Source: Sinorhizobium americanum
GTDB lineage: Bacteria > Pseudomonadota > Alphaproteobacteria > Rhizobiales > Rhizobiaceae
Assembly: GCF_001651855.1 (NCBI RefSeq)
Contig: NZ_LNQC01000056.1
Coordinates: 124,001-188,000 of the forward strand
Length of the DNA: 64,000 nucleotides
Direction: 5' to 3'
Shown: in pieces, positions 54,280-61,911 of the stretch
How the letters are laid out: every line of letters begins with the position of its first letter
How positions within the stretch are numbered: the stretch's first letter is position 1
Notes under the pieces: model-generated
What the model saw: the letters and a program-made list of their open reading frames with translations, nothing else
What the model was told of the DNA's origin: nothing
Databases searched by the model: none
Made by a program: the position numbers and the translations under genes

Positions 54280-54642
54280 ATGCATGAGCTATTTAATCCG
54301 AACCTTCCGCCCGAAGCTCTCCTGTCTGGTCGCTTCCGCATCCATGCGGTGAAATCCGACGCGATGGAGCCGGCGCTCCGCGGAGGGCGCGATTATGCGC
54401 TTCTCGCACCGGTAACTGCATATCAGGGAGAGGGGACCTACCTCATCGACGACGGCCTCTCGCTCGACCTCTACCGCGTTACCAACACGCTGGAGAAATG
54501 CGGCGCCCTTTGTCTGTCCAGGGAAAACCCACGCTACGGATCGAAGACGATCGGCAGGGATGATTTCAACGAAAGAGTTGTCGGCATCGTCGTGGCCGAT
54601 ATCAAAGTGCGAAACGAGCGGTTTCTCGCAGCTAGACGGTGA
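54280..54642 (+). CDS. S24/LexA-fold protein without catalytic serine or HTH
   Basis: A 120-residue protein. It has the layout of the C-terminal self-cleavage domain of LexA/CI repressors: FRIHAVKSDAMEPALRGGRDYALLAP corresponds to the GDSM-x-P region, TYLIDDGLSLDLYRV to the segment that carries the general-base Lys, then VVGIVVADIKV. The nucleophile is Ala28 instead of Ser, and the Lys position holds Leu or Tyr. No DNA-binding domain precedes it. It should be proteolytically dead. It overlaps the CI-like gene tail to tail by 11 bp. A dimerisation partner or antirepressor for CI is conceivable. This is inference. Confidence 0.65.
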   Translation: MHELFNPNLPPEALLSGRFRIHAVKSDAMEPALRGGRDYALLAPVTAYQGEGTYLIDDGLSLDLYRVTNTLEKCGALCLSRENPRYGSKTIGRDDFNERVVGIVVADIKVRNERFLAARR

Positions 54643-55318
54643 AGCGGCCGATGTAGCGACCCACGATGTGGATCTCGTCGAGAGTGAACTCGCGCTCCGA
54701 ATGGCGCGGGTTATCGGAGATTATCTTCACGGTCACCGTCTCGGCGCCAGGACGCGATGTCACCTCGAGGCGCTTCACGACGACTCCGCCAAATTCATCT
54801 GCAAGCGCGTAGACGCCATCCGGTGATGGCACTCGATGACGCGTATCGATGAATACTACGTCGCCGTCACCAATGGTAGGTGACATAGAGTCCCCCTGCG
54901 CCGGGAAGGCGGCAACGTGAGCCGCCTTTACGCCCATCCTCGCCAGCATCCACTCGGGAAGGCGCCAGTGATCGCGGACGACTTCTTTCGCGAAGGTGAT
55001 GCCGTTCCGGCTGGTTTGCTCGAGAGCACTGAAACCGCCGGCGCCGAGGCCTGCGACCAGGTCAATCTCGGGAATGTCTTTGCTCTTGTCATCGGTAGAC
55101 CGGCCGTCGCTACGTTCAGGAGCTCCCAAATCGCCTTCCGGCAAGTCCAGGATCTCCGAGAGGCGTGAGCGGACATCCTCTTTGAGCTTGGCCGGAATGT
55201 TCCTCTCCATGAACTGCTGCATGTAGGCGGCGTTCTTCCCAAGCTCCAGCGAGACCTCTTTGTAATTCAGGCCTCGCTCCTGCATCCGCTTCAGAATCGT
55301 TCGTCTCACCTGGTCCAT
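54632..55318 (-). CDS. CI/LexA-like prophage repressor
   Basis: A 228-residue protein. The HTH (residues 5-55) includes LNYKEVSLELGKNAAYMQQFM. The cleavage site is probably Ala93-Gly94 in GLGAGGF. The S24 peptidase domain has Ser144 in QGDSMSPT and Lys182 in VVVKRL, so RecA-stimulated autocleavage on DNA damage is expected. It is divergent from a Cro-like gene, with three operator-type sites in the 85-bp gap. It should maintain lysogeny by blocking both early promoters. A perfect minus-strand TATAAT at 55377-55372 is a candidate -10 for its own promoter. Confidence 0.92.
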   Translation of the reverse strand: MDQVRRTILKRMQERGLNYKEVSLELGKNAAYMQQFMERNIPAKLKEDVRSRLSEILDLPEGDLGAPERSDGRSTDDKSKDIPEIDLVAGLGAGGFSALEQTSRNGITFAKEVVRDHWRLPEWMLARMGVKAAHVAAFPAQGDSMSPTIGDGDVVFIDTRHRVPSPDGVYALADEFGGVVVKRLEVTSRPGAETVTVKIISDNPRHSEREFTLDEIHIVGRYIGRFTV

Positions 55319-55403: not shown

Positions 55404-55604
55404 GTGTCCGAACTCGAAGCTTTCAAGACCACGGTGGAAACCTTCATCGCCGATCGGAACATGACGCCGACGCAGTTCGGCAAGCAGTTCGCAGGCGATC
55501 CGCTTTTCGTCTTCCAGCTGAGAGACGGGCGCGAACCGAGGACGCAGACGCGCGAGCGCATCCTGCAGGCGATGGAAGCTTCTGAACAGGAGAATGCGGC
55601 ATGA
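55404..55604 (+). CDS. Cro-like HTH protein
   Basis: A 66-residue protein starting at GTG 55404. FKTTVETFIADRNMTPTQFGKQFAGDPLFVFQLRDGR reads as a compact HTH in which TPTQFGKQ and PLFVFQLR are helices 2 and 3. A charged helix ends it (QTRERILQAME). The position is divergent to the CI-like repressor across a shared operator array. A Cro-like role in the lytic switch is the simplest reading. Confidence 0.75.
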   Translation: MSELEAFKTTVETFIADRNMTPTQFGKQFAGDPLFVFQLRDGREPRTQTRERILQAMEASEQENAA

Positions 55605-55938: not shown

Positions 55939-56739
55939 ATGACTTCCGACGCTCAGATCAAAGCTTTCATCGACCGCATCCTTCGCTTGAAGGAAGAGCA
56001 AGACACGATCGGCGAAGACATCCGCGACATCTACGCGGAAGCCAAGAGCATGGGCTTCGACAAGACCGCCATGGGCAACGTCGTCGCGCACCTCCGCAAG
56101 GTGTCGAAGAAGGGCCATGACACCGTTGCGGAGCAGGGCGCCATCTTCGATCTGTACCTGGCTGCATACGAGGGTCATGCGCCTGCGCCCGCCCGCGCAC
56201 GAGAAAACATTGAGAAATTTGACCGCGAAGCACGCGCCAAGCGCCGCACTTCCGAAGCTATGGATGACAACAAAGCATTCTCTGCCGAGTTGGCTGCAGC
56301 TGGCCTGATCTCGGAAGAGGCGCACGCAGAACACGTCGCACTCTCCGATGCCGTCGCCAGGAAGTACGGGGCAGGAGTCGTCGACCACGAGACCGGCGAA
56401 ATCCTCGACGATCAGCCCCGTTCCGACGGTGGCCTGAACATCGTCACCAAGCACACCGAAATCGCCTCGTCCCCTCAAGGCGAAACCGCATCCCCCAGCG
56501 CTGAGGTGGAAGCCGCCAGCGCCAACGCAGGAGGCGAAGATGTAGACCGCAGCGCGGAGCGCGCCACCGCCGCACGTAACGAAGCGGATGCCACCGTCAC
56601 TCCGGCATCCGCTTTCACCGCCAAGCCCAGAAGCGCACTCCGGCCGAACTGCCGGAACCCTGAAGCATGCGCCGGATATGGCGACAAGCATTGTCATGCC
56701 TGCACCGTTGCGAAGCGCCAGCAAGAGGAAGTCGCCTAA
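55939..56739 (+). CDS. GapR/DUF2312-domain protein with long C-terminal extension
   Basis: A 266-residue protein. Residues 1-80 match GapR (DUF2312): IKAFIDRILRLKEEQDTIGEDIRDIYAEAKSMGFD, then VVAHLRKVSKKGHD and GAIFDLYLAAYEG. GapR is an alphaproteobacterial nucleoid protein that grips overtwisted AT-rich DNA ahead of the replication fork. Host GapR is about 90 residues. Here a 180-residue tail is added, low in structure (EVEAASANAGGEDV), and ending in a Cys-rich patch (CRNPEACAGYGDKHCHAC) that could bind zinc. It starts the main rightward operon. Confidence 0.82.
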   Translation: MTSDAQIKAFIDRILRLKEEQDTIGEDIRDIYAEAKSMGFDKTAMGNVVAHLRKVSKKGHDTVAEQGAIFDLYLAAYEGHAPAPARARENIEKFDREARAKRRTSEAMDDNKAFSAELAAAGLISEEAHAEHVALSDAVARKYGAGVVDHETGEILDDQPRSDGGLNIVTKHTEIASSPQGETASPSAEVEAASANAGGEDVDRSAERATAARNEADATVTPASAFTAKPRSALRPNCRNPEACAGYGDKHCHACTVAKRQQEEVA

Positions 56740-57200: not shown

Positions 57201-57256
57201 ACGCGCTGGATCTCGGCAACGACGAGCGGATCAAGAAGGGGGTCCCCCATGTCTAG
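57197..57256 (+). CDS. Possible 19-residue peptide ORF
   Basis: An ATGA overlap with the 31-residue ORF and another overlap with the next ORF form a chain. The peptide (NALDLGNDERIKKGVPHV) has no recognisable feature. Confidence 0.25.
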   Translation: MNALDLGNDERIKKGVPHV

Positions 57257-57380
57257 TTCTCTTTCGGTCACCATTGCCACCACCGGCGCGACTATCTGGC
57301 TTCTGCTGTTGCTGATGCCGTTTCTGTCCCGGTTCATCGCCCATGAATTCCGCCGCCGCGGATACACGGCAAAGGATTGA
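57249..57380 (+). CDS. 43-residue single-helix membrane protein
   Basis: The ATG at 57249 overlaps the previous small ORF. The product has one hydrophobic helix (VTIATTGATIWLLLLLMPFL) then a basic tail (HEFRRRGYTAKD), consistent with N-out/C-in topology. Its stop lies at the foot of the first hairpin of the structured segment. Confidence 0.5.
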   Translation: MSSSLSVTIATTGATIWLLLLLMPFLSRFIAHEFRRRGYTAKD

Positions 57381-57447
57381 GCGCTTTCACCTCCTCCCGA
57401 GGCGCTCAACGCTGGTCCCGGTCCTCCTCCTCCCGATCGGGGCCAGC
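57377..57447 (+). ncRNA. Tandem hairpins with anti-Shine-Dalgarno loops (cuckoo / alpha-r14-like)
   Basis: Hairpin 1 (57377-57409) has an 8-bp stem TTGAGCGC/GCGCTCAA and the loop TTTCACCTCCTCCCGAG. Hairpin 2 (57411-57447) has a 10-bp stem GCTGGTCCCG/CGGGGCCAGC with one wobble and the loop GTCCTCCTCCTCCCGAT. Both loops present CCTCCTCCC, the motif of rhizobial anti-SD small RNAs such as alpha-r14/NfeR1 and the so-called cuckoo RNAs. The motif binds ribosome-binding sites of target mRNAs. No protein in this stretch is convincing. Strand and boundaries are inferred from the loops; no promoter was identified. Confidence 0.6.
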
Positions 57448-57454
57448 AACTCTC

Positions 57455-57638
57455 AACCTGATGCGCTTGTTCGCCAGGTTCATGACCACGGCTCGAACAG
57501 CGACACCCAAGGGGATGGGAGCCGGCGACGACGAGGTCACGTCGCCGGCTGTAGGGGCGGACGTTGCGGCGGAGCCCCTACGAAGCGGAAAGACTTGGGA
57601 GGGACCGGCAGCCGTTGGCGCGGTCCGGTCCTCTCCCT
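57455..57638 (+). other. Four further consecutive inverted repeats after the anti-SD hairpins
   Basis: Stems: AACCTG/CAGGTT at 57455-57480; AGCCGGCGAC/GTCGCCGGCT at 57520-57550; TAGGGGC/GCCCCTA at 57552-57580; GGACCG/CGGTCC at 57602-57626, which has GGGAGG and CTCTCCC extending it. ORFs across this segment are Ser/Arg-rich shadows, so it looks like structured non-coding RNA, a long leader or a protein-binding site such as a nut-like or origin region. Confidence 0.55.
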
Positions 57639-57706
57639 CGGAAGTAATGCCTGTGCGCATGCGCTTCTCCTTCACAAGAGAAACGATCTCACAGGAGACT
57701 CACAAG

Positions 57707-58105
57707 GTGCTGGAATTCAGAAACACGACCTTGTCCAAACGTGACAAGGCGAAAAGGAATAAGGCAATGTCCGATGTTTCTTATGCGCAAAATCTTTTCA
57801 GAGAAGCATTTCCAGAGAAGCGCTACGGCAGTGTCAAGAACCTGTTGTTTGAAGCTCAGCGTTTCATCTCCAAACACGTACGGAAAGACTTCACCCATCG
57901 TCGTGCGCGTTCGATCTGGGAAGGATCGGCCCGCCGCATCGACGCTGAAGAAATGGACGCGCTGCGGATCGCAGCAATCGAGGAGAGCAAGCGTGAACAA
58001 CGAGAAATCCGTGCCCGTCTGGCTGTCCTGGATGCGAAGCTTGCCGCTGTCCGTGCGGCTGAAGCTCGCTCGCCGGTGGCAGCGCATCGCAAACGAGCGC
58101 GCTGA
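57707..58105 (+). CDS. Basic phage protein of unknown function
   Basis: The protein has 132 residues from GTG 57707, chosen because AGGAGA stands 9 bases upstream. Longer frames reach into the hairpin region and lose sense. SKRDKAKRNKA is basic, SYAQNLFREAFPEKRYGSVKNLLFEAQRFISKHV helical, then FTHRRARSIWEGSARRIDAEEMDALR, followed by a coiled-coil-like end. The structure suggests DNA or RNA binding, without a family name. The next small gene overlaps its 3' part in another frame. Confidence 0.65.
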   Translation: MLEFRNTTLSKRDKAKRNKAMSDVSYAQNLFREAFPEKRYGSVKNLLFEAQRFISKHVRKDFTHRRARSIWEGSARRIDAEEMDALRIAAIEESKREQREIRARLAVLDAKLAAVRAAEARSPVAAHRKRAR

Positions 58106-60072: not shown

Positions 60073-60642
60073 GTGACCGATTGGTTCTTCGACCCGCTTC
60101 TCCCGCTCCATTACGAGATGATCGTCATCGATATCCCGTGGCCGTTCGATCTCTACAGCGACGCCGGCGCGAAAAAGTCTGCGTCTGCTCAGTATGAGAC
60201 CATGACGACCGAGCAGATCCTCGACCTGCCAGTCGGGCAGCTCGCGAGCATGGATTGCTTGATTTACTCATGGGCGACCGCGCCGCATCTCCCGCTCGCC
60301 ATCGAGTGCCTGAAGGCATGGGGCTTCGAATACAAGAGCTTCATGACCTGGCGGAAGACGACGGCAGCCGGCAAGGTTCGCATGGGAACCGGCTACCGTG
60401 TCCGCACGACCGGCGAGATCGTGCTTGTCGGCACGCTCGGCAACCCGAAGCAATCCCATGTGCCGCCGACCATCTTCGACGGCGTGGCGCGCGAGCACAG
60501 CCGCAAGCCAGATGAGTTCTATGACCTCTGCGATCGGGTGATGCCGCACGCGCGGCGCGCTGACGTATTCGCTCGAGAGAGCCGCGCCGGCTGGCATGCG
60601 TTCGGGAACCAGGCGACCAAATTCGATGAGGTGGCTGCATGA
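60073..60642 (+). CDS. MT-A70-family adenine methyltransferase
   Basis: A 189-residue protein from GTG 60073 (GAGGTGAG upstream). The motif MIVIDIPWPF is the DPPW catalytic motif in the DIPW form. YETMTTEQILDLPVGQL, YSWATAPHLPLAIECLKAWGF and MGTGYRVRTTGEIVLVGTLG are all typical of phage MT-A70-like N6-adenine DNA methyltransferases. HSRKPDEFYDLCDRVMP is the closing signature. It would methylate adenine in phage or host DNA. The target sequence is unknown. It overlaps the next gene by 4 bp (ATGA). Confidence 0.88.
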   Translation: MTDWFFDPLLPLHYEMIVIDIPWPFDLYSDAGAKKSASAQYETMTTEQILDLPVGQLASMDCLIYSWATAPHLPLAIECLKAWGFEYKSFMTWRKTTAAGKVRMGTGYRVRTTGEIVLVGTLGNPKQSHVPPTIFDGVAREHSRKPDEFYDLCDRVMPHARRADVFARESRAGWHAFGNQATKFDEVAA

Positions 60643-61723: not shown

Positions 61724-61911
61724 CACTCGAAGACGCAGCCGACGCCGTCCGAGCCTACATCAAGGAGAAGGGCTATGAAGGTGGCCGCTACCGATCCGAA
61801 TGGCTGGACATTGTCGATGAAGCCGTAACCGAGATCCGCGTGGAATTGGCGAACGGTCCAGTCGTCTTCGGGAAAGCTCCTGTTTGGGGTGAGCAGGAGG
61901 CGGTTGAGTGA
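61720..61911 (+). CDS. Small acidic phage protein
   Basis: A 63-residue protein (TLEDAADAVRAYIKEKGYEGGRYRSEWLDIVDEAVTEIRVEL), mostly helix. No family is recognised. It overlaps the PAPS-reductase-like gene by 4 bp and the next gene by 4 bp. Confidence 0.55.
   Translation: MTLEDAADAVRAYIKEKGYEGGRYRSEWLDIVDEAVTEIRVELANGPVVFGKAPVWGEQEAVE

Follow-up and report, generated by a model that had tools for sequence, protein, structure and literature searches.

A conserved pair of hairpins with anti-Shine–Dalgarno loops in a prophage early region of Sinorhizobium americanum

Hairpin RNAs that expose anti-Shine–Dalgarno (anti-SD) sequences have been described as chromosomal stress and nitrogen regulators in rhizobia and Rhodobacter. 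The ar14/NfeR1 family (RF02344) appears in PMC3927594 under the names RFM SmelA075 and SmelA099, and PMC10746234 describes NfeR1 as silencing ntrB through anti-SD loops that pair at the translation start, with its three loops being redundant. According to PMC10253847, RNase E releases the CcsR RNAs of Rhodobacter sphaeroides from an operon in which they follow a small-protein gene, and PMC3927594 describes two anti-SD stem-loops in RS0680a of Rhodobacter. Phages also encode small RNAs: AgvB and AsxR are prophage-borne and redirect host post-transcriptional control (PMC12559287). A search of the open literature, which did not extend to the 2015 cuckoo paper, found no title or abstract on anti-SD hairpin RNAs in phages, and the terms hairpin, small RNA, non-coding and sRNA are absent, by term search, from two papers on phiLM21-like prophages (PMC12429752 and PMC5537653).

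Here we describe two adjacent hairpins, H1 and H2, in a prophage early region carried by a 64,000-nucleotide stretch of Sinorhizobium americanum DNA (NZ_LNQC01000056.1, positions 124,001 to 188,000), referred to below as the window. The pair is real and conserved. An earlier note on this DNA had reported two neighboring stem-loops presenting CCTCCTCCC, and both are found where it had placed them, in the computed fold as well as in the relatives. The decisive support is comparative, as the loops are retained and the stems co-vary, and the retention of loops on changing stems in related phages suggests that the phage uses the hairpins to block protein synthesis from chosen messages. The 301-nt segment 57360-57660 folds with a z-score of -3.4, and none of 100 shuffles was equally stable. 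The motif CCTCCTCCC has only two copies in the window, both in H1 and H2; motif count alone was dropped as evidence because two or more copies arose in 21 of 100 shuffles of the window.

Table 1. Features of the prophage early region around the hairpin pair (positions in the window).
Feature	Position	Strand	Remarks
CI/S24-like repressor	54632..55318	-	
Small ORF in cro position	55404..55604	+	divergent from repressor; marks early operon
GapR-like gene	55939-56739		
Upstream small ORF	57249..57380	+	43 aa; hydrophobic by eye; stop codon in H1 5' arm
Rfam ar14 (RF02344) match	57372..57486	+	sub-threshold; 47.6 vs 58.8 bits, E = 2.5e-7
Hairpin H1	57377..57409	+	11 pairs, 57377-57387 with 57399-57409; loop CACCTCCTCCC, motif 57390-57398; conserved, co-varying
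Conserved ORF	57406..57660	-	84 aa; convergent with + ORF; covers hairpins 3-6 and H2
Hairpin H2	57411..57447	+	13 pairs, 57411-57423 with 57435-57447; loop CTCCTCCTCCC, motif 57426-57434; conserved, co-varying
Hairpin 4	57520..57550		inverted repeat inside minus-strand ORF; compensatory changes, 94/97 regions
Hairpin 5	57551..57581		inverted repeat inside minus-strand ORF; compensatory changes, 93/97 regions
Downstream gene, phrog_26665 (unknown function)	57706..58105	+	GTG start

As shown in Table 1, the pair lies on the cro side of a CI-type switch, among additional small plus-strand ORFs. The ORF in the cro position had no family match here, and the phiLM21 gene at that position is annotated as Cro-like. 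In the window both arms of H1 hold stop codons, that of the plus-strand ORF in the 5' arm and that of the minus-strand ORF in the 3' arm. An upstream plus-strand ORF that stops in the 5' arm of H1 is present in 53 of 75 relatives, and the other 22 have none in the positions searched. phiLM21 retains the hairpins although its next annotated plus-strand gene differs from that of the window. H1/H2 is probably a conserved RNA element of the early message, on the cro side, in a temperate phage of rhizobia that resembles phiLM21.

The pair resembles ar14/NfeR1 in its tandem hairpins, CCUCCUCCC loops and variable stems, but it has two hairpins where ar14 has three or four, lacks a terminator hairpin, shows no promoter above chance in a weak scan and sits in a phage early region. 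A search with the ar14 covariance model, suggested by the earlier note, did return a match on the plus strand, but at 47.6 bits this falls under the cut-off. The model matches 18 of 20 related phage records (all but RHph_N3_2 and L028, whose version of the downstream protein is only distantly related), each time below the cut-off of 58.8 bits, and the CcsR1 model (RF02791) also matches the plus strand, with 33.7 bits against a gathering cut-off of 65.3. We therefore rejected filing the pair as ar14 or as CcsR1, since the scores are under the cut-offs and a T-run terminator is missing. The layout is nevertheless that of CcsR: in most relatives the pair starts at the stop codon of the small upstream ORF, and it shares with CcsR1-4 and ccaF1 (the 'CIN1 locus' or cuckoo family) both the anti-SD loops and the position behind a small ORF. 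It differs from that locus in being phage-borne, in the convergent minus-strand gene that overlaps H2 and in its upstream ORF, which has no Pfam match and hence is not a DUF1127 protein. The cuckoo family is described by anti-SD modules in varying number on stems of any sequence, and the pair, with two conserved modules, fits that description. Like AgvB and AsxR, the element is predicted to be a prophage-borne small RNA; unlike these RNAs, which antagonize host sRNAs, it bears the host sRNA's own motif in its loops and should bind mRNAs.

Further anti-SD arrays of up to four modules occur elsewhere in the host genome (L012:1470-1630 and L009:1475-1630), the L012 array scoring 45.9 bits, under the ar14 cut-off. 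Two adjacent ar14 copies lie on the prophage-bearing contig outside the window (G000:C56:44125-44539; L006 and L008).

Relatives were picked by protein or DNA similarity and never by the motif. Five records of named phages were matched by blastn (two entries for phiLM21, RHph_TM3_3_3, RHph_N28_2 and RHph_N3_2); the phiLM21 match spans the hairpin region at 75% identity, and the RHph_N3_2 match is confined to the downstream gene. IMG/VR contributed 16 loci through the downstream protein and 104 relatives through the minus-strand protein, 80 of which were kept, and a scan of genome contigs contributed 11 loci (seven Sinorhizobium/Ensifer, two Rhizobium and two Rhizobiales). These 80 and 11, together with the window and L002, L003, L004, L015, L016 and L021, give 98 regions, 76 of them distinct. 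In all 76 distinct regions a hairpin finder blind to the motif placed one or more strong hairpins whose loops are anti-SD-like, and in 60 of them it placed two; the loop test was less strict than a search for the full motif (it asked for CCTCC, CTCCTC or CACCCC inside the loop or within three bases of it, CACCCC having been admitted only once L004 had been seen). Of 99 related phage or prophage loci, 97 are matched by the covariance model R1, each a single time and where the pair is expected; the two unmatched are RHph_N3_2 (L005) and L028. RHph_N3_2 has the downstream gene and no hairpin match, so the element can be missing beside that gene. Across 297 genomes of the family, with 15 candidates scored in each, R1 gave at least five matches including the window's own; occurrence is sporadic, and with 15 candidates per genome this count is no measure of rarity.

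Compensatory stem changes in related prophages, a check proposed in the earlier note, were found in abundance. In an alignment of the 61 distinct sequences among the 97 R1 matches, 97.1% of cells are paired and double changes occur in 20 of 21 pairs (307 cells). The covariation score of 0.721 compares with 0.221 in shuffles, none of 500 reaching it, and slides leave 31-44% paired; this alignment was fitted to the structure and its sequences are related, not independent. An 11-sequence alignment over the same number of pairs behaves alike, with 98.2% of cells paired, 16 pairs (50 cells) changed on both sides, a score of 0.708 (shuffles 0.225, none of 500 reaching it) and 33-45% paired after slides of one to three columns. 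The 17-row alignment A4 had some badly placed stems; its successor A5, the 11-sequence alignment, omits L045, L108, L030, L082, L098, L004 and L016 (four of these rows were judged misaligned) and adds L075, and the recount on all 97 model matches upholds the A5 result despite the dropped rows. Stem variants such as TTGAGCGC, TTGATCGC, TTAAGCGC and TAGTCGCC each occur with a matching opposite arm, and these leave little doubt that the covariation is true.

The strand on which selection acts can be read from wobble pairs, as a G-T pair becomes an A-C mismatch when the opposite strand is read. Among 68 distinct hairpins we counted 52 G-T and 9 A-C, and with one hairpin per stem cluster (13 H1 and 11 H2, from loci with both hairpins) 18 and 1. 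The excess of G-T on the plus strand points to the plus-strand RNA, with CCUCCUCCC loops, as the molecule under selection. The early operon lies on this strand too, as do the ar14 and CcsR1 matches. Both the compensatory changes and the wobble polarity came out in favor of what the earlier note had proposed, an anti-SD-loop RNA akin to ar14 and cuckoo RNAs within the early operon of a phage.

The remainder of the earlier proposal fared less well. It had described the segment as free of any credible protein, yet the minus-strand ORF (57406-57660) is conserved: its frame is uninterrupted in all 17 loci examined (the window, 14 loci identified through the downstream protein and two through DNA similarity), and it has 104 relatives in IMG/VR. 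Its pooled pN/pS is 0.52. Constraint is stronger in the AVVMRLANKRIRLRV core (pN 0.18-0.30, pS 0.52-0.72), slight in the part over hairpins 4 and 5 (pN 0.35-0.40, pS 0.42-0.44) and, on the protein level, weak in the tail (pN 0.35-0.42, pS 0.37-0.50). H2 overlaps the 3' coding end and on the minus strand encodes an EEE-rich tail, while the loop of H1 lies beyond the ORF's stop codon in the window and keeps its motif. The protein has no Pfam or PHROG match, and its structure model is poor (mean pLDDT 60.3, one helix). The four further inverted repeats of the earlier note are present in the fold, and hairpins 4 and 5 recur with co-variation, but hairpin 6 (57597-57636), though found in many relatives, recurs less regularly. 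Over 14 stems the polarity of hairpin 4 (one G-T, five A-C) leans, on these counts, toward action on the minus strand; hairpin 5 gave 11 G-T and 7 A-C over 24 stems, or 5 and 5 without three spurious long matches. A single plus-strand RNA of six hairpins, as first envisaged, was rejected for hairpins 3-6, which lie inside the conserved minus-strand ORF and of which hairpin 4 does not have plus-strand polarity. Of the two findings that had been named in advance as telling against an RNA, a conserved protein does exist but is antisense, and absent covariation is not what we see.

No promoter of its own stands out in a scan near 57370, where the relatives do not exceed the null either; the scan is weak, host ar14 copies themselves reaching just 6-9 of 12. 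Past H2, 45 of 47 relatives have at most three T in any 8 of 14 bases, whereas a T-run hairpin follows in five of five host ar14 copies. Because there is no T-run terminator, a processed 3' end has to be assumed, and the sub-cut-off ar14 and CcsR1 scores, the lack of a conspicuous promoter and the missing T-run together mean that a processed RNA embedded in the operon would fit better than a free-standing sRNA gene. We consider it rather probable, on the combined analysis, that the pair is a processed, trans-acting anti-SD RNA derived from the early mRNA. The pair would be cut from the polycistronic message just past the stop codon of the small ORF, and once freed its loops would pair in trans with Shine–Dalgarno sequences on messages of the host and the phage, keeping ribosomes off them when the prophage is induced or a cell is infected. 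The production of this RNA, its processing and its silencing of mRNAs are what we infer. Counted against this reading are the missing T-run, the absence of the hairpins from RHph_N3_2, an upstream ORF that is not DUF1127 and the 22 of 75 relatives in which no upstream ORF stopping in H1 was found.

Duplex energies between the loops and 22 chosen start regions, several of them uncertain, span a wide range. The strongest start, at 60073, reaches -17.8 and -19.7 kcal/mol, compared with -17.2 kcal/mol for the 16S tail, calculated with what we take to be its sequence, and the start at 61908 also pairs well. Most strong Shine–Dalgarno sites would pair well, so these energies name no target. The start of the CI-like repressor (55318, minus strand) has hardly any Shine–Dalgarno match, unlike most early starts tested, and is the second weakest for one loop (-3.9) and the weakest for the other (-0.3).

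Good pairing at early starts such as 60073 and 61908 would equally suit a cis element, in which the hairpins stay in the early mRNA and either tune translation of the same transcript through their loops or shield the upstream mRNA at its 3' end. The lack of a promoter-like site and of a terminator, the start of H1 at the upstream stop codon and a similar pair lying in frame inside an ATPase gene (on contig L183) are all in keeping with this idea. However, the placement of the hairpins and their spacing to downstream genes vary across phage types, phiLM21 has them in front of a different annotated gene, and protection of an mRNA by itself needs no loop motif; we regard a cis role as unlikely, though as the most credible of the alternatives.

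The other two explanations turn on the minus strand, and we give each of them very little credence. As a decoy, a minus-strand transcript would display GGGAGGAGG loops and sponge 16S rRNA or the host ar14 RNAs; the loops of the opposite strand are perfect complements, and a conserved minus-strand gene ends within the hairpins, but the wobble polarity (52 to 9, and 18 to 1) favors the plus strand, which is also the strand that ar14 and CcsR1 match. Alternatively, H1 and H2 might merely mark a junction of convergent genes, as a two-way terminator or as a by-product of the tail of the minus-strand protein, given that both ORFs have their stop codons in the arms of H1 and that H2 encodes the EEE-rich tail. 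Against this, T-runs are lacking (45 of 47 relatives, as above), and the H1 loop keeps the motif although it lies past the minus-strand stop codon; the protein tail is only weakly constrained, the polarity favors one strand, and the same loops recur in unrelated phage contexts.

This recurrence came from two scans of IMG/VR for closely spaced pairs of exact CCTCCTCCC motifs, with 197 loci among the matches listed. Among these listed matches are 160 distinct sites, and in 64 of them each of the two motifs sits in a strong hairpin; for random positions within these loci the figure is 16 of 4800. The 64 form at least 30 stem clusters, sorted by hand into three of the window type, three of the ar14 type and 24 others, with 33 G-T and 12 A-C. 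Ten neighboring proteins, picked as recognizable from nine loci and eight stem clusters, all have PHROG matches, and regulators of the repressor or Cro type lie within 1.6 kb of the hairpins in L149, L157, L170, L173 and L199. By blastn of neighboring genes, L123 is linked, like L183, with phages of Rhizobium and Sinorhizobium whose fetched stretches show no such hairpins; BLAST of L157 and L148 returned no informative phage relatives, and the fetched stretches of RHph_TM3_3_14B, AP-16-3 and PBC5, named relatives of the other hairpin types, contain no such hairpin. Across these contexts the loops are the only common feature, the stems being unrelated.

Two of 13 contigs tested pass the ar14 cut-off, L121 with 81.2 and L123 with 80.5 bits; the other 11 are below. 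These two phage-contig copies (L121:999-1119 and L123:8583-8702, both on the minus strand) each include a third hairpin with a T-run behind it, and their promoter-like boxes score 9/12 and 8/12, values equaled or exceeded by 24 and 127 of 940 random stretches, respectively. A Mu Gam-like gene is located close to the L121 copy. In L183 (11170-11250, plus strand) the tandem hairpins are in frame in an ATPase ORF (phrog_1366), so that their sequence is translated as a protein linker.

A broader idea, which we offer tentatively and think somewhat less probable than not on this analysis, is that anti-SD arrays could be a general early-gene tool of temperate phages, captured or re-evolved in many unrelated lineages as free sRNA genes (the ar14 copies above cut-off), as pairs behind stop codons or inside coding frames. 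Made at induction, they might reset host and phage translation while the repressor, with its scant Shine–Dalgarno sequence, escapes.

The presence of this module, with its structure strongly selected, in the early region of a phage group, and on many phage contigs with unrelated stems, would mean that phages use anti-SD hairpin RNAs and possibly carry them between hosts' genomes and their own. In tractable plant symbionts it would also offer a phage RNA open to direct testing, its active site being defined as the loops.
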